Made by a program: the position numbers and the translations under genes. This document shows, piece after piece, positions 11,920 to 47,208 of a stretch of DNA of 64,000 nt; position 1 is the first letter of the stretch; every line of letters starts with the position of its first letter. The stretch lies in NCBI GenBank assembly GCA_022652945.1, contig JALCRV010000002.1, positions 1 to 64,000 of the forward strand, given 5' to 3'. The notes beneath the pieces are model-generated. The model did no database searches. It saw nothing but the letters and a program-made list of their open reading frames with translations, and was not told where the DNA came from. This DNA is from Bacilli bacterium. Lineage in GTDB: Bacteria > Bacillota_I > Bacilli_A > RFN20 > CAG-288.

Positions 11920-12738
11920 CTATATATTTCCCGGAAAGACATAAGCAAGATACTCTTTTGCAATCTCGGTTAGACGAAAAATATCCTTGATGGGAGTAGG
12001 CTTCTTATCGGACATTTTGTACATAGGGAAGAATCTAGTGATGTGAAGGGGAATCTTCTTATCGATAGAAGCAAGGAAGGAAGCGATACCTCTCATTTCT
12101 TCTTCCGAATCATTCTCGCCGGGGATGATCAAGGTTGTGACTTCCACATGAGCTTGGCTTGCGGAAATCTGAATGGCTTTTTTAACCGTGTCTAAATCTC
12201 CGCCGCACATTTGATAGAAGCGGTCAGTAAAGCCTTTTAAATCGATATTCAAAGCATCGATAAAAGGCAGAAGTTCCTTTAAAGGGCCTTCTTCGATGGT
12301 CCCGTTAGTAACAAGGACCGTTTTAAGTCCCTTTTTTTTGGCGAGCGAAGAGGCTTCTTTAACATATTCATAAGAAACTGTCGGTTCATTGTAAGTAAAT
12401 GCCACGCCGATGTTACCTTCGCTTTGGTACTTTATAGCTAAATCGATTAAATCAGCTGGGGATAGATATTCCCATGGAAAGGACTGATCGGCTTGGGATA
12501 TTTCGTAATTTTGACAGAAAGGGCAACGTAAATTGCAGCCGTAACTTCCTACCGAAAGGATTTTGCTCCCTGGATAAAACATTTTAAGGGGCTTTTTCTC
12601 AATCGGATCTAAGGCTAACGAAGTAATCCGGCCATAGTTTTCATCGATAATGTGGCCGTTCTTATTTACTCTGGCATGGCAAAGGCCGTGCTGGCCTTCT
12701 TTTAAATCGCAATGATGAAAACAAAGAGGGCAAATCAT
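11920..12738 (-). CDS. amrS: AmmeMemoRadiSam system radical SAM enzyme
   Basis: A 272-residue radical SAM enzyme. The cluster motif is C68-x3-C72-x2-C75 in YGCNLRCPFCQN, preceded by an N-terminal Cys/His set (MICPLCFHHCDLKEGQHGLC in outline) and followed by FTYNEPTVSYEY and ALNIDLKGF. This matches the COG1180 branch that is paired with Memo and AMMECR1 in the conserved AmmeMemoRadiSam unit. The chemical reaction of the unit is not established. Its ATG overlaps the stop of the upstream fusion gene by four bases (ATGA), consistent with coupled translation. Confidence 0.9.
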   Translation of the reverse strand: MICPLCFHHCDLKEGQHGLCHARVNKNGHIIDENYGRITSLALDPIEKKPLKMFYPGSKILSVGSYGCNLRCPFCQNYEISQADQSFPWEYLSPADLIDLAIKYQSEGNIGVAFTYNEPTVSYEYVKEASSLAKKKGLKTVLVTNGTIEEGPLKELLPFIDALNIDLKGFTDRFYQMCGGDLDTVKKAIQISASQAHVEVTTLIIPGENDSEEEMRGIASFLASIDKKIPLHITRFFPMYKMSDKKPTPIKDIFRLTEIAKEYLAYVFPGNI

Positions 12739-26861: not shown

Positions 26862-26901
26862 AAAAAAGCCCCGTCCTTAAATTTCTCTAAAGGACGGGGC
26901 T
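26862..26901 (-). terminator. T-box-controlled terminator before metN
   Basis: On the minus strand a 12-base-pair stem AGCCCCGTCCTT/AAGGACGGGGCT with a loop of about ten bases is followed by a run of T. Its 5' half can pair alternatively with the T-box sequence to form the antiterminator. Confidence 0.9.
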
Positions 26902-27122
26902 AGATAACCCGTGTTACCACCTTTATTTGCCTAAATATCGCTATTTAAGCCTCAGCGAGTGCAAATGCTACACTCTGCAGCGATGACGGGCGCACCCGGT
27001 TCAAGTTACATATCGCCTGAACAGCTCCGAGGCCATGTTCATCTTTTCTTTCCCATCCCTGTTCCATCACATCCAGGGACTCTCTATAGGTCAAAAGCAG
27101 ATTACTCTTCCTCTTCTCAGCT
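26862..27122 (-). ncRNA. T-box leader, tRNA-Met specific (specifier AUG)
   Basis: The minus-strand leader has the parts of a T-box: stem I base AGCTGAG/CTC-GG-AGCT, the AGAGTA S-turn element, a specifier loop reading GAAC-AUG-GCCTC with the AUG at 27034-27036, and the T-box bulge GGTGGTAACACGGG at about 26908-26921. A terminator follows. An AUG specifier means uncharged tRNA-Met would stabilise the antiterminator and switch on metNIQ when methionine is short. This agrees with the genes behind it. Confidence 0.92.
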
Positions 27123-27132
27123 TTATGGGACT

Positions 27133-40529: not shown

Positions 40530-40739
40530 TCTTTCAGTCCTGGCTTCCTTTCCTATTATAAACTATCGAAGGTTATTTTTACTTAAAAAGCGAAAGTGTC
40601 AAAAAATGCCAACCTTAAAATCTATGGCCTTTTGCCGATATATTAGCCTTTGCACCGGAAAACATCGGTTCTATTGCAAAAGTGAAGGTTGCAAATAGCC
40701 TGCTTTCAGGATAGACTCATTGCGTAGATGCGTTTAGCG
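40530..40739 (+). other. Upstream leader region with stem-forming repeats
   Basis: No gene is seen. The stretch contains TTTGCA ... TGCAAA around CCGGAAAACATCGG (about 40649-40680), able to fold as a stem with an inner CCG/CGG pair, a further TTGCAAA copy at about 40689, and a first copy of CGTTTAGCG at 40731-40739 immediately before the riboswitch aptamer. It is either the 5' part of the bmpA leader or the promoter region; I could not place a convincing promoter. Confidence 0.4.
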
Positions 40740-40802
40740 CGTGTATAAATGATCGAGACGGCTGATCACCTATCTAGCCCTGGCCTTACAAGGGACTACA
40801 CG
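40740..40802 (+). promoter_or_regulatory. Purine-type riboswitch aptamer (variant) upstream of bmpA
   Basis: The segment follows the purine riboswitch plan: P1 CGTG/CACG (40740-40743 with 40799-40802), J1/2 TATAA, P2 TGATC/GATCA with loop AGACGGC, J2/3 CTATCTA, P3 CCCT/AGGG with loop CCTTACA, and J3/1 ACTA in GGGACTACACG. Loop GG and CC can form the usual kissing pairs. The base equivalent to position 74 is C, as in guanine-type rather than adenine-type aptamers. Deviations from the consensus are A in J2/3 (CTATCTA for GTTTCTA), a bulged P3 and a short P1. A nucleoside transporter follows, in keeping with a guanine, guanosine or deoxyguanosine ligand. Confidence 0.75.
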
Positions 40803-40873
40803 ACAAAGTCGGAGATGCTTCTTGGGCTTATTGGAAATCCATAAAGGATTCTAGAGGCTTATTGGTAAGCAGA

Positions 40874-40903
40874 CGTTTAGCGAAACTTTATATGCGCTAG
40901 ACG
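40874..40903 (+). promoter_or_regulatory. Hairpin before bmpA, possible expression platform
   Basis: CGTTTAGCG (40874-40882) can pair with CGCTAGACG (40895-40903) through nine base pairs including one G-U. An identical CGTTTAGCG lies at 40731-40739, just before the aptamer, so the 3' strand could switch partners. A preceding GCTTA-TTGG-TAAGC hairpin ends next to it. There is no T run after the hairpin, so translational control or processing is more likely than termination. Confidence 0.5.
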
Positions 40904-40935
40904 GCATTTACAAGAAAGGATTTTTCATACCAATT

Positions 40936-42144
40936 ATGAAAAAAAGTCTGCTTGTTGCTTCGTTCGCTTTAGTTTTAACTGGTCTGGTCTCTTGCGGTAC
41001 TCCTACTACTTCTTCTTCGGCTGCTGCTACTTCCTCTTCGGCTGCTGCGGCTGGCGGTGCTGAAATCGCCCTTGTTACCGATGTCGGAAACATCGATGAC
41101 CATTCCTTCAACGAAGCTTGCTGGAAAGGCTGCCAAGATTATTCCACCGCTTCTGGTGTAAGCACCAAATACTATCGTCCGACTGAAGACTCCACTACCG
41201 CTCGTGTCTCTATGATCGATACTGCTGTCGCCAATGGTGCTAAGGTTGTCGTTATGCCTGGCTTCCTGTTCAATTCCTCCATTAAGATTGTTCAGGATAA
41301 GTATCCGGCTGTTCGCTTCCTCGGCGTCGATTGCGATCCTTCCGATGCTGATAATGGTTATGCTGCTTATGATTTCAAGACCAACGTCACTTCCATTAAA
41401 TACAATGAAAACGAAGCTGGCTTCTTCGCTGGCTACGCTATCGTCAAGGAAGGGTATACCAACCTTGGCTTCTGCGGTGGCATCGCTGTTCCGGCCGTTG
41501 TCAACTATGGACAAGGCTATCTCTGGGGCGCTGATTATGCTGCTAAAGAGATGAATTTAGCTGATAAATCCATCAAGTGCAATTATTGGTATGCTGGAAC
41601 CTTCGCTCCGTCGGGTGATATTGTCACCAAGATGGCTGGCTGGTATGAAGGCGGGACTAAAGTCATCTTCTCTTGCGGCGGTGGCATCTACGCTTCCGTT
41701 GATAAGGCTGCTGCAGACACCAATACCTCCAACGGCAACGAAGCTTGCCAGGTTATCGGCGTCGATGTCGATCAGTCCTCTCTTTCTCCTCGTATCATCA
41801 CTTCCTCGATGAAGAATCTGCAGAAGACCGTCACTGTCTACCTTGATGCTCTTTATAAGAACAATATGGCTTGGGGCACGATCCAAGGACAGGAGACCGC
41901 TGGTAAGTCTATCTATAAAGGCGTTACCGATGATGCGGTTGGTCTGCCGACCGATGCTTATTCCTATAAGGATATTAACAATGTGACTGTCAATGTCGAT
42001 CCTTGGAGATTTAAGAATTTCACCAAGGAAGAGTATCAGGCTATCTACGCCAAGGTCAAAGATGGAACCATCAAAGTTCCGCACACTGACACTGGCAAGG
42101 ATATCTTCCCGGTCACCAAAGTCGATACTACTTACGTTGAATAG
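40936..42144 (+). CDS. bmpA: BMP family nucleoside-binding lipoprotein
   Basis: A 402-residue solute-binding lipoprotein with lipobox LVSC (Cys20) and a Ser/Ala/Thr-rich linker. The BMP-family opening IALVTDVGNIDDHSFNEACWKG and the NENEAGFFAGYAIV-type segment are clear, as is CGGGIYASVDKAA. Relatives (PnrA, BmpA, NupN) bind purine nucleosides. It uses a biased set of C- and T-ending codons, suggesting high expression. A terminator after the gene would leave the binding protein in excess over the membrane parts. Confidence 0.92.
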   Translation: MKKSLLVASFALVLTGLVSCGTPTTSSSAAATSSSAAAAGGAEIALVTDVGNIDDHSFNEACWKGCQDYSTASGVSTKYYRPTEDSTTARVSMIDTAVANGAKVVVMPGFLFNSSIKIVQDKYPAVRFLGVDCDPSDADNGYAAYDFKTNVTSIKYNENEAGFFAGYAIVKEGYTNLGFCGGIAVPAVVNYGQGYLWGADYAAKEMNLADKSIKCNYWYAGTFAPSGDIVTKMAGWYEGGTKVIFSCGGGIYASVDKAAADTNTSNGNEACQVIGVDVDQSSLSPRIITSSMKNLQKTVTVYLDALYKNNMAWGTIQGQETAGKSIYKGVTDDAVGLPTDAYSYKDINNVTVNVDPWRFKNFTKEEYQAIYAKVKDGTIKVPHTDTGKDIFPVTKVDTTYVE

Positions 42145-42269: not shown

Positions 42270-44519
42270 ATGCCAATAAATGGTGCTCCTGACAATTTGA
42301 ATACGCTTTCGGGGGAAAACGATGTTGTCGTGATGCAGAACATCACGAAGACTTTCCCCGGGATAAGAGCTAACGATAATATTACAATCCGCCTCAGAAA
42401 AGGCGAGATTCATGCTTTACTAGGAGAAAACGGCGCTGGGAAATCGACTTTGATGTCGATTCTTTTTGGCATTTACACCGCGGACTCCGGTTCGATTTTT
42501 ATCAATGGCAAAGAAGTAAGAATCAAAGACCCTAACGATGCCAACCGTTACGGAATCGGCATGGTCCATCAGCATTTTATGCTCATCGATTGTTTCACCG
42601 GCTTGCAGAACATCATCCTCGGAGCGGAACCGGCTGATCATTTAGGTATTCTTCATCCGAAAAAAGTCCGCAAGGAGATTGAAGCTCTCTGCGATAAGTA
42701 TAATTTCCATGTCGATTTGGATGTTAAAGTCCAAGATATGCCAGTCGGGATGCAACAGAAAGTCGAAATCCTCAAGATGCTTTACCGCAAGAACAGCATC
42801 CTCATTTTCGATGAGCCGACCGCTGTTTTGACTCCCCAGGAAATCGATGAACTGATCGCTTCGATGAAGGGCTTGGTGAAAGAAGGAAAATCAATTCTCT
42901 TCATTTCGCATAAGCTGAATGAAATCATGGATGCGGCCGATCGGGTCAGCGTCCTCCGCAAGGGTAAATATATCGGAACTGTCGATGTTAAAAACACTAA
43001 TATCCAAGAGCTTTCTAATATGATGGTCGGCCGTCCAGTCCAACTGGTAGTCCAAAAAGGACCGGCCAAAGTCGGAAAGCCGATTCTCTGCGTAAGAAAT
43101 CTTACCGTTTATTCCCATGCGCGACATAAGGAAATGGTGAAGAAGGTTTCCTTTGATGTCCGCCAAGGTGAAATCACCTGTATCGCTGGTATCGAAGGAA
43201 ATGGTCAGTCTGAATTGATTTATGGCATCACCGGTCTGATGCCGGTTAAATCCGGGCATGTTTATTTAGCTAATGTCGATTTCGGAAAGAAGAAAAAAGT
43301 CGCACAAAGTGAAGTAGTTAACTTCATGAAAATTGAAGAACTCTCCATCAGAAAGCGCAATAACCTCGGTGTCTCCCATATTCCTGAAGACCGCCATCGC
43401 TATGGCTTGGTTTTGGATTTTCCTTTGAAATATAACATGGTTATCGAAAAATATTTCACCCCGTCATTTTCCCATCACGGGTGGATGGATTATCCTTCAA
43501 TTCAACGCTATTCTGACTCGGTTATCGCTAAATACGATGTCCGCTCAGGGGAAGGTAGCGACTCTTTGACCCGCTCGATGTCGGGTGGCAATCAACAGAA
43601 AGCCATCGTCGGACGTGAACTAGATCGAAATACTCCTCTTCTGATTGCTTGCCAGCCTACAAGAGGGTTGGATGTAGGGGCTATCGAATTCATCCATGCG
43701 GAAATCGTTAAGCACCGCGATGGAGGCGAAGCGATCCTTTTGATGTCTCTGGAACTGGAAGAAGTCTTTAACCTCGCCGATAGGATCTTGGTCATGCACG
43801 AAGGAAAAATCGTGGCAGAACTCGATCCGAAAAAGACGACCATGGAAGAAATCGGCTTATATATGTCCGGCGCTAAGAAGATGGATTTACCTCCGATGGA
43901 GGATTTGAAGTCTTCTGATTATCAAGAGGCTCCTGTCGGCCTCGTCACTTTAGAACCTTCAGAAGATAAAAAAGCCACGGCTCAAGAAGAAGAGAGTCAG
44001 AAAGAAACTCCTCTTGAAAAGACCGAGCCAATCGATGAAAAACCTGATCAAGTCAAACCGCAAGAGGAGAAGGCTGAAGAGAGCAAAAAAGCTCTTGAAG
44101 AAAAAGAGCCTCTAGCTGAACCTGTTAAAGAAGATTTAAATAAAGAAGATAAAGAAGAAGTTGAAAAAGAGACTCCAGCTATCCCCCCTGTTTCTGAAGT
44201 AAAAGAAGAAATAAAGCCTGAACCTCTTATGGAAGCGAAAGCGGAAGAACAAGCCGTTCCTTCTGAAGAACAAAAGCCTGCCCCGGAAAAGGTGGAGGAA
44301 GTTTCAGTTAAGGAAAATAGCAACCCAGAAGAAGAGGAAAAAGATAATAAGCCTATAAGAATCAACGGGCGTTTTGCTAAGTCTTCTAGTAAACCTCAGA
44401 CTTCCTTGAAGAAAGAAGAGCCGAAGAAGGAAAAGAAAGATCTCGATGCTATCAGATTGAAAAATCTTGTGCAATTCCGCGACAAGAAAAAGAATACGGG
44501 CGAGAAGGGAGATAAATAA
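42270..44519 (+). CDS. Nucleoside ABC importer ATPase (double NBD) with long charged C-terminal tail
   Basis: A 749-residue protein. Residues about 20-515 are two tandem ABC domains of RbsA/NupO type: the first with GENGAGKST, VGMQQKVEILKML and ILIFDEPTAVL; the second with GIEGNGQSE, MSGGNQQKAIVGREL and LLIACQPTRGLD, so the second Walker A lacks the GKS/T and the Walker B lacks the acidic DE pair, as is usual for this family. Residues about 530-749 are an extra tail rich in E, K and P that is not part of the family (normal length about 510). The tail ends basic (LKNLVQFRDKKKNTGEKGDK in outline). It precedes the permeases by a few bases. Confidence 0.9.
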   Translation: MPINGAPDNLNTLSGENDVVVMQNITKTFPGIRANDNITIRLRKGEIHALLGENGAGKSTLMSILFGIYTADSGSIFINGKEVRIKDPNDANRYGIGMVHQHFMLIDCFTGLQNIILGAEPADHLGILHPKKVRKEIEALCDKYNFHVDLDVKVQDMPVGMQQKVEILKMLYRKNSILIFDEPTAVLTPQEIDELIASMKGLVKEGKSILFISHKLNEIMDAADRVSVLRKGKYIGTVDVKNTNIQELSNMMVGRPVQLVVQKGPAKVGKPILCVRNLTVYSHARHKEMVKKVSFDVRQGEITCIAGIEGNGQSELIYGITGLMPVKSGHVYLANVDFGKKKKVAQSEVVNFMKIEELSIRKRNNLGVSHIPEDRHRYGLVLDFPLKYNMVIEKYFTPSFSHHGWMDYPSIQRYSDSVIAKYDVRSGEGSDSLTRSMSGGNQQKAIVGRELDRNTPLLIACQPTRGLDVGAIEFIHAEIVKHRDGGEAILLMSLELEEVFNLADRILVMHEGKIVAELDPKKTTMEEIGLYMSGAKKMDLPPMEDLKSSDYQEAPVGLVTLEPSEDKKATAQEEESQKETPLEKTEPIDEKPDQVKPQEEKAEESKKALEEKEPLAEPVKEDLNKEDKEEVEKETPAIPPVSEVKEEIKPEPLMEAKAEEQAVPSEEQKPAPEKVEEVSVKENSNPEEEEKDNKPIRINGRFAKSSSKPQTSLKKEEPKKEKKDLDAIRLKNLVQFRDKKKNTGEKGDK

Positions 44520-44524
44520 TAATT

Positions 44525-46159
44525 ATGGAACAAGAAAAAGTTATTCCTCCTAAAAAACCTGTCGTGAAGAATAAGAAAGTAACCTTCTTTAAGAGGCCGG
44601 TGGTTATTTCGATCTTCTCTTCATTGATTTCTATTCTCATCGGCTTGCTGATCGGCTTTTTTATCCTGATCTTCGTCCATCCTAGTCAGGCCATGGAAGC
44701 CTTTGGTAAGCTTATTGTTTCCGGCTTTTCTTCCCAGGATAATATCGCTCACTTTTTCTATCTATCCGCCCCGATTATGCTTACAGGGCTAGCCGTGGCT
44801 TTCACCTTTAAGGCCGGCTCTTTCAATATCGGTGGCCCGGGACAATATATCGCTGGAGGTTTCTTTGCCTTATACGGTGCTTTGGTCTTAAATCTGCCTT
44901 GGTATGTTTGCTTGCTTCTGTCTTTAATCGGCGGTGGAATCTGGGGCTTTATCCCGGGTATTTTAAAAGCTGCCTTCAATGTCAATGAAGTCCTCTCCGC
45001 TATCATGCTTAACTGGATCGGTTTGATTTCTGCCTTCTTGGCTATTAAGAATATCCCGGGGATGATCGATTCCCATTATTCTTCTCGTACGGCTATCGTC
45101 TCGAATGTTAACCCCGGAGCCGTTTTGCCTTCCTGGGGCTTAGAAGCGATGGGCAGCGGCATGACAATCGCTTTCTTTATCGGAGCGATTTTCGCAGTAA
45201 TCTGCTGGGTTATTTTGAATAAGACGACCTTAGGCTTTGAGATTAAGGCTTGCGGATTTAATAAGGATGCGGCTAATTACGCTGGCATCCCTGCGAAAAA
45301 GAATATCGTTTTAGCTTTCATCATCTCCGGTGCTTTAGCTGGCTTGGGCGGAGGGATTTATTATCTGTCTCCGACTTCGACCGCTGGATTTGTGATGACT
45401 ACTTCCTCTTTGCCTTCAGCGGGCTTTGATGGTATTTCGGTAGCTTTGCTGGCTGCTAATAATCCGTTAGGTTGTATTATTTCCGCTTTGTTTGTCGCTT
45501 ATTTAACTGTTTCCGGCTCCACCTTACAGGCTTACGATTACGCTCCAGAAGTCATCACGGTTGTGGTTGGTGTCATCGTTTATTTCGCCTCCTTTGTCGC
45601 CTTCTTCCAAGGTTGGCTTTTAAGGGGCGGAAATATTAAGAAGACTGTAAATAAGTTATTTAAAAAACCGGAAGGGAAACCTATCTCCGCTCCGGCTGCT
45701 CATGTCGAGACAATTCAACCTGCTCCGGAGGCTCCGAAAGCTGAAATTGCTAAGGAGAAGAAAGAAACCGTAAAGACGGAAGAAGGCTTGAATAATTATC
45801 AAGAGCCTCAAGGCGTTTCTCCTTCCTTAAAAGATGATAACGAAATCGACGATGCTTTTATCGCTTCCTTAGCAGCTTCGAAAGTCACCTCTGAAAAGTC
45901 AGCTCCCAAGACGGAAAAGAAGGAAGAAAAGAAACCGTCGGAGACTAGCAAGAATACTAACGAGCCGAAGGCGGAAGATAAAGATAAAATCCATATCACG
46001 GAATCTCCTTTTGGCAGAAGCCAAGATATGGAAGGTTATTTAAAAGATAACCCCATCAACGATGATGTGGCTCCTTTGGAACGTGTAAAAGATGATAAGG
46101 CACCTCAAGAAAAACCTGATAAACCGGAAGAGAAGAAAGAGGAAGGGGAGGATAAATAA
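44525..46159 (+). CDS. Nucleoside ABC importer permease 1 with charged C-terminal tail
   Basis: A 544-residue BPD_transp_2-type permease. After a short basic N-terminus, about ten membrane helices occupy residues 25-370, with the family motif FNIGGPGQYIAGG and the GFNKDAANYAGI cytosolic loop. Residues about 375-544 form a hydrophilic tail rich in E, K, P and D, which normal members (about 350-370 residues) lack. The start lies five bases after the ATPase stop and the second permease follows after two bases. Confidence 0.9.
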   Translation: MEQEKVIPPKKPVVKNKKVTFFKRPVVISIFSSLISILIGLLIGFFILIFVHPSQAMEAFGKLIVSGFSSQDNIAHFFYLSAPIMLTGLAVAFTFKAGSFNIGGPGQYIAGGFFALYGALVLNLPWYVCLLLSLIGGGIWGFIPGILKAAFNVNEVLSAIMLNWIGLISAFLAIKNIPGMIDSHYSSRTAIVSNVNPGAVLPSWGLEAMGSGMTIAFFIGAIFAVICWVILNKTTLGFEIKACGFNKDAANYAGIPAKKNIVLAFIISGALAGLGGGIYYLSPTSTAGFVMTTSSLPSAGFDGISVALLAANNPLGCIISALFVAYLTVSGSTLQAYDYAPEVITVVVGVIVYFASFVAFFQGWLLRGGNIKKTVNKLFKKPEGKPISAPAAHVETIQPAPEAPKAEIAKEKKETVKTEEGLNNYQEPQGVSPSLKDDNEIDDAFIASLAASKVTSEKSAPKTEKKEEKKPSETSKNTNEPKAEDKDKIHITESPFGRSQDMEGYLKDNPINDDVAPLERVKDDKAPQEKPDKPEEKKEEGEDK

Positions 46160-46161
46160 CA

Positions 46162-47208
46162 ATGGAACTGCTTAATTTATTCGAAATCTTGGTCCTCGAT
46201 GACCAAGCCATCTCCGCCGCTGGGACTTTCACTTCTTATTTTATCGCCTTAGCTATCCCGCTGATCTTCGTCGCTATGGGCGGTATGTTTTCTGAGCATT
46301 CCGGTATCGTCAACATCGCCTTAGAAGGCATCATGGTCTTCGCCGCGATGGTGGGCTGCATTTTGATGAAGAATTTCGATTTAGCTGTCAGCAAAGGCTT
46401 CCCGGCTCAGTTGGCGATGTTTATCTCCGTTTTCGGTGCTGGGGCAGCTGGGGCTCTGTTTGCTAGTTTGCTCTCCTTGGCGGCTAACCGCTTTAGAGCT
46501 GATCAGACCATTGCGGGCACAGCCTTAAATATCATCGCTCCGGCTTTATACATCATCGTAGTCTGGGCTATCAATAAAGGGCAGACTCAGTTGGAATTCC
46601 CGTCCTGGTATAAGATGACGATGACCGATTTCGGTATTACCGATGCTAGTCTGGTCCCTCTGTTCTGGCGCAAGCTTTTCTTCAATAAGCTTTCGATTAT
46701 CACGACTTTCTACGCCTTAGTCTTGTTCCCGTTAGCGGCTTTCGTCCTTTATCGGACGAAATTCGGTCTCCGTTTAAGATCCTGCGGTGAACATCCTGAG
46801 GCTTCCGCTTCCTTAGGCATCAATGTCTACGCAATCCGTTATGCGGGTGTAGCCATCTCCGGCTTCTTAGGTGGAATCGGGGCGATGTCATATGTCTTGG
46901 TTGTCGCTTCCTCCTTTGATGGTCAGGTCGCTGGGTATGGCTTTTTAGCTCTCGCAGTCATGATCTTCGGGAACTGGAAACCGGGCGCGATCATCTTAGC
47001 GGGTCTTTTCTTCTCTTTGTTTAGAACGATGTCTTCGATGAATTCTTTGATTTCCTGGCTTCCGACTTTCTCAAATATCAAAGGCGGCAGCACTTTATAT
47101 TTGCTTCTGCCTTATGTGGTGACTTTGATCGTCTTGATTTTCGCTTCTAAGCATTCGCAGGCTCCGAAAGCTGAAGGTACACCCTTCGACGTGGAAAAAC
47201 GTTCGTAA
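46162..47208 (+). CDS. Nucleoside ABC importer permease 2
   Basis: A 348-residue permease of the same family, normal in length. It shows GMFSEHSGIVNIALEGIMVF, ADQTIAGTALNIIAPAL and the loop LRSCGEHPEASASLGI. With permease 1 it forms the channel of a purine-nucleoside type importer. No charged tail is present here, in contrast to its two upstream partners. A terminator follows. Confidence 0.92.
   Translation: MELLNLFEILVLDDQAISAAGTFTSYFIALAIPLIFVAMGGMFSEHSGIVNIALEGIMVFAAMVGCILMKNFDLAVSKGFPAQLAMFISVFGAGAAGALFASLLSLAANRFRADQTIAGTALNIIAPALYIIVVWAINKGQTQLEFPSWYKMTMTDFGITDASLVPLFWRKLFFNKLSIITTFYALVLFPLAAFVLYRTKFGLRLRSCGEHPEASASLGINVYAIRYAGVAISGFLGGIGAMSYVLVVASSFDGQVAGYGFLALAVMIFGNWKPGAIILAGLFFSLFRTMSSMNSLISWLPTFSNIKGGSTLYLLLPYVVTLIVLIFASKHSQAPKAEGTPFDVEKRS

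Follow-up and report, generated by a model that had tools for sequence, protein, structure and literature searches.

The hallmark bases of guanine aptamers are U22, U51, and C74 (PMC9295807; junction and helix positions are given here in xpt numbering), and one such aptamer, yxjA of B. subtilis, is an OFF switch on a nucleoside transporter (PMC9756952). Position 51 is U in the guanine and adenine classes and C in 2'-dG-I and 2'-dG-II, and U51C by itself shifts a guanine aptamer towards 2'-dG (PMC8872408). Two further classes have been described on this scaffold: 2'-dG-III, which deviates in all three junctions and is found with a nucleoside hydrolase gene, and Guanine-II, a predicted ON switch that precedes phosphoribosyltransferase genes and has one extra nucleotide inserted in J2-3 (PMC9295807). 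In open-access papers, we found no published report of purine riboswitches linked to BMP-family genes in the bacterial group studied here.

The window, a stretch of 64,000 nucleotides from a Bacilli bacterium of the order RFN20 (contig JALCRV010000002.1), very probably carries at 40740–40802 a guanine-class aptamer of the guanine-I type, situated in the leader of a BMP/PnrA nucleoside importer and likely acting as an OFF switch; both ligand and direction are what we infer from comparison. The initial annotation had recognized a purine riboswitch plan in this interval, and the plan holds: the aptamer is a three-way junction, the interval runs exactly from P1 to P1', C occupies the position-74 equivalent, and L2 and L3 contain the GG and CC expected of the loop contacts (Table 1). 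The P3 helix, which had been read as bulged, is instead short, with 4 bp followed by a possible G-A mismatch. The GGC of L2 and the GCC of L3 could form a 3-bp kiss, and the combination of GG in L2 with CC in L3 recurs in 80 of 82 homologs.

Table 1. Features of the bmp leader and of the downstream importer genes, in window coordinates.
Feature	Position	Strand	Basis or remark
Possible promoter, TTGCAA-17-TAGACT	40689..40717	+	Inference; aligned counterpart in congener G004 is TTGAAA-17-TAGAAT; 8/12 matches, under scan threshold
Long-range helix, 5' strand (5' flank and P1 5' strand)	40724..40745	+	22 bp with 40889-40911
P1 5' strand CGUGUA, including U20 and A21	40740..40745	+	Sequence, covariation
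J1/2 UAAA, U22 at 40746	40746..40749	+	U22 and A23 invariant in 82 homologs
P2 UGAUC/GAUCA (40750-40754/40764-40768) and L2 GAGACGGCU, GGC at 40760-40762	40750..40768	+	5/5 P2 pairs covary
J2/3 C45 C46 U47 A48 U49 C50 U51 A52 G53; U51 at 40775, variable position 48 at 40772	40769..40777	+	Alignment with homologs
P3 CCCU/AGGG, 4 bp (40778-40781/40791-40794) and L3 GGCCUUACA, GCC at 40783-40785	40778..40794	+	4/4 P3 pairs covary
J3/1 and P1 3' strand (P1' 40797-40802); C74, predicted ligand-pairing base, at 40796	40795..40802	+	C74 invariant in 82 homologs
Long-range helix, 3' strand, bulged G40904	40889..40911	+	Ends just before Shine-Dalgarno-like AGAAAGGA at 40913-40920
BMP/PnrA-type nucleoside-binding lipoprotein, controlled gene	40936..42144	+	PF02608, E 3.6e-29; solved BMP/PnrA-type relatives
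Importer ABC transporter ATPase	42270..44519	+	PF00005
Permease subunit	44525..46159	+	PF02653
Permease subunit	46162..47208	+	PF02653

On comparative sequence evidence, the element is a real purine riboswitch whose divergence puts it beyond the reach of the standard Rfam model. In the covariance-model search proposed in the initial annotation, RF00167 left the element unmatched both at the gathering score and at E ≤ 10; a model built from relatives (R2, below) matched it clearly. Genome-wide, RF00167 matched a single, different locus, L001, which lies on contig C13 and scores 56.9 bits. This second purine riboswitch of the genome (L001:1501-1598; G000:C13:52169-52266) lies before a second BMP-family lipoprotein gene. 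A DNA search in relatives yielded one useful homolog, in congener G004, with 84% identity over 61 nt spanning exactly the aptamer stretch, again upstream of bmp and amid diverged flanks, and a descriptor scan found the same core in the bmp-ortholog leaders of further genomes. Two position-orthologous elements upstream of bmp (L018 and L027) themselves exceed the Rfam cut-off, at 52.9 and 40.8 bits.

Pairing is conserved in these homologous leaders. Across 12 elements (11 bmp leaders, the window's among them, and L001), two-sided compensatory changes occurred in 14 of the 16 base pairs of three common helices, and 95.8% of alignment cells were paired, compared with 33 to 43% when the structure was slid; 51 sequences that excluded the window's genus were 96.4% paired. 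Model R2, built from those 51 sequences, matched the held-out window element with a score of 47.4 bits, for which E was 2.2e-8 over 76 kb and 5.9e-7 over the whole genome, and its whole-genome search returned only the window element and L001. Since R2 also recovered all 31 of the Rfam-detected purine loci tried, it and the Rfam purine model describe one family. Of 279 genomes from the order, 90 contained matches to model R1; the model's weak match at window positions 12271-12321 was set aside as chance, the invariant core being missing.

Folded alone, the window aptamer has ordinary stability (z 0.11), so the proof of the aptamer is comparative and not energetic. The whole leader, by contrast, folds as a long rod (z −5.3) and lies beside rarA, and another structured RNA with an accidental purine motif, for instance a 6S-like rod at 40724-40911, would fit these features. 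The probability of this reading is nevertheless negligible, because it is contradicted by the covariation and by the genus-excluded R2 match. Furthermore, 6S RNA was ruled out for this leader: it has no match to the Rfam 6S model (RF00013), the orthologous leaders share the purine aptamer, and the 6S candidate of this genome lies elsewhere, on contig C9 (L002:1501-1655; G000:C9:24702-24856, minus strand), where it scores 45.9 bits, just under the Rfam cut-off of 46.4. Elsewhere in the window, a T-box leader (112.8 bits) occupies positions 26887-27127 on the minus strand.

The feature that first drew attention to the aptamer was its J2/3 strand, which was said to depart from a near-invariant sequence. 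It does read C-UAUCUA, as reported; the change, however, is U48A alone, and position 48 is far from invariant. In a model-based alignment of 82 homologs, which replaced a noisy regex tally of Rfam loci, 51 had C at position 48, 25 had U, and 6 had A; among the 31 Rfam-detected loci, U stood there in 20, C in 10, and A in 1. L001, which is the Rfam-positive element of this genome, likewise reads UAUCUA, and the J2/3 anomaly is therefore ordinary. In the adenine member of the family, residue 48 is described as alternating between a solvent-exposed and a latch position (PMC9588036, PMC11477058). Twelve positions never change across the 82 homologs (U20, A21, U22, A23, U47, U49, C50, U51, A52, C74, U75, and A76), and the window carries the complete guanine pocket of U22, U47, U51, and C74. 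A less common trait adjoins this pocket: C46-G53 replaces the usual G46-C53, with C46 found in 3 of the 82 homologs, all three of which have G53. The swap may cause a modest shift in affinity or specificity.

Several solved BMP/PnrA-type lipoproteins bind purine nucleosides, and the genes downstream of the aptamer do constitute a nucleoside importer, with a BMP/PnrA lipoprotein, an ABC ATPase, and two permeases, as the initial annotation had it. A variant that binds guanosine or 2'-deoxyguanosine, in the manner of 2'-dG-I, -II, or -III, would then sense the compounds that the downstream importer takes up, and the C46-G53 exchange and the A in place of U at position 48 could be cited in its favor, as known classes on the purine scaffold switch ligand through junction mutations (PMC9295807). 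We consider this unlikely, given that the bases which set those classes apart point the other way. The window shares with 2'-dG-I and 2'-dG-II the scaffold and the C at the position-74 equivalent, but it has U51 where both have C51 (PMC8872408), and it retains the U22 that is C in 2'-dG-I. Its J1/2 and J3/1 are guanine-like, unlike the three deviating junctions of 2'-dG-III (PMC9295807; this class was compared by its description), and its gene encodes an importer and not a hydrolase. The same invariant core also stands before purE-purK and a PbuG-like permease in homologs. With U51, U22, and C74 identical in all 82 homologs, the proposed change of ligand to guanosine or 2'-deoxyguanosine finds no support. 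Nor does a nucleoside transporter downstream imply a nucleoside ligand, because yxjA is a guanine switch on just such a transporter.

Guanine is predicted as the ligand on the grounds of the retained U22, U51, and C74, the yxjA precedent, and the gene contexts of homologs. Across the order, the genes that follow homologs with the same core encode two BMP-family lipoproteins, a PbuG-like permease, and PurE-PurK (the last two named from sequence), and these contexts would fit guanine. Beyond the order the arrangement is rare: in other named genomes, a purine switch preceded bmp at only 1 of 80 BMP loci, which makes the association a trait of the order and not of BMP genes in general. In the window operon, the ABC ATPase (42270-44519) and the first permease (44525-46159) have long, charged C-terminal tails past their conserved domains, of about 200 and 180 residues, respectively, that are rich in E, K, and P.

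Measured against guanine-I (RF00167; B. subtilis xpt and yxjA), the window aptamer has the same three-way junction, GG/CC loop kiss, U22/U47/U51/C74 pocket, and A21-U75 and U20-A76 pairs topping P1, and it shares with yxjA a nucleoside transporter as the regulated gene (PMC9756952). It differs in scoring below Rfam detection, in its 4-bp P3 with the possible G-A mismatch, in a kiss of 3 bp (GGC/GCC), in C46-G53, and in an alternative helix that overlaps the 5' strand of P1 rather than the 3' strand. Guanine-II also retains U22, U51, and C74 (PMC9295807), but the window J2/3 has no insertion relative to Rfam-positive relatives. Purine cores with a P3 of about 2 to 3 bp were seen before bmp at three loci of the order (L013:2655-2717 in G047, L014:2689-2750 in G044, and L222:1756-1817); these lack the GG/CC kissing loops, have an intact U22/U51/C74 core, and are followed by a terminator. 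Only 2 of 279 genomes of the order fit the strict form of this pattern.

In leaders from g2, a genus of the window's family, the 3' strand of P1 runs on into CCATTTAATCC. This sequence could pair with GGATTAAATGG, which forms the 5' arm of a terminator with a T tail; by its sequence, this is a textbook antiterminator/terminator OFF platform. The leader of congener G004 also contains a terminator. The window leader had no predicted intrinsic terminator and no difference in Shine-Dalgarno accessibility between its two predicted states, hence no predicted sequestration dependent on the aptamer state, and for these reasons the OFF direction is taken from the relatives. What the window leader does contain is a 22-bp helix (40724-40745/40889-40911) of about −31 kcal/mol, a stability equaled by none of 1000 mononucleotide or dinucleotide shuffles. 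Its outer 16 bp are compatible with the aptamer, and its inner 6 bp compete for the P1 5' strand. The sequence CGUUUAGCG occurs twice in the window, just before P1 (40731-40739) and before CGCUAGACG (40874-40882), so that the distal strand could pair with either copy.

The strength of the competing helix raises the question of whether a real aptamer has ceased to switch, with the leader either held under the long helix or constitutive. The predicted leader reaches −75.8 kcal/mol with that helix and −64.8 kcal/mol with the aptamer enforced, and the short P3 and the missing terminator would also be in keeping with decay. Set against this, all core bases are kept, and 84% identity over the aptamer amid diverged flanks in the congener indicates selection on the aptamer itself; decay is accordingly very unlikely in our judgment.

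For a functional guanine riboswitch, recurrent helices in nine leaders of another family, f5, suggest, with weak support, switching through the P1 5' strand. There, the 5' flank and the P1 5' strand can form a comparable helix with a segment that precedes the Shine-Dalgarno sequence; the outer part lies in the same alignment columns in eight of the nine, and the single-leader shuffle p values range from 0.001 to 0.03. Covariation in this helix is limited to two pairs with two-sided changes, a score that 12 of 500 shuffles reached, and the sequences are related. In several f5 leaders, the distal segment holds an anti-Shine-Dalgarno sequence that could form a local hairpin with the Shine-Dalgarno sequence. 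In congener G004, the long-range helix was not significant against shuffles (p 0.16).

Free guanine is predicted to pair with C74 and to be held by U22, U47, and U51, stabilizing P1; hypoxanthine is probably bound too, more weakly. Binding would most likely reduce importer expression, as end-product feedback in which cleavage of imported purine nucleosides releases bases and the base turns import off. In the window, ligand binding would probably draw the P1 5' strand out of the 22-bp helix that closes the leader beside the Shine-Dalgarno region. It is possible, although we regard it as rather doubtful, that such guanine riboswitches are read out through the P1 5' strand: in the unliganded state, this strand and its upstream flank would hold a distal leader segment (one that, in several related genomes, contains an anti-Shine-Dalgarno sequence), and ligand would close P1, free the segment, and repress translation, with the helix 40724-40745/40889-40911 playing this part in the window. 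If true, this would be, to our knowledge, an uncommon way of linking a purine aptamer to gene expression.

In sum, the window element appears to be a divergent guanine riboswitch with an ordinary pocket and guanine as its predicted ligand. Purine riboswitches in this little-studied order reach well below the Rfam detection limit, and neither a change at position 48 nor a downstream nucleoside transporter is, alone, evidence of a new ligand.
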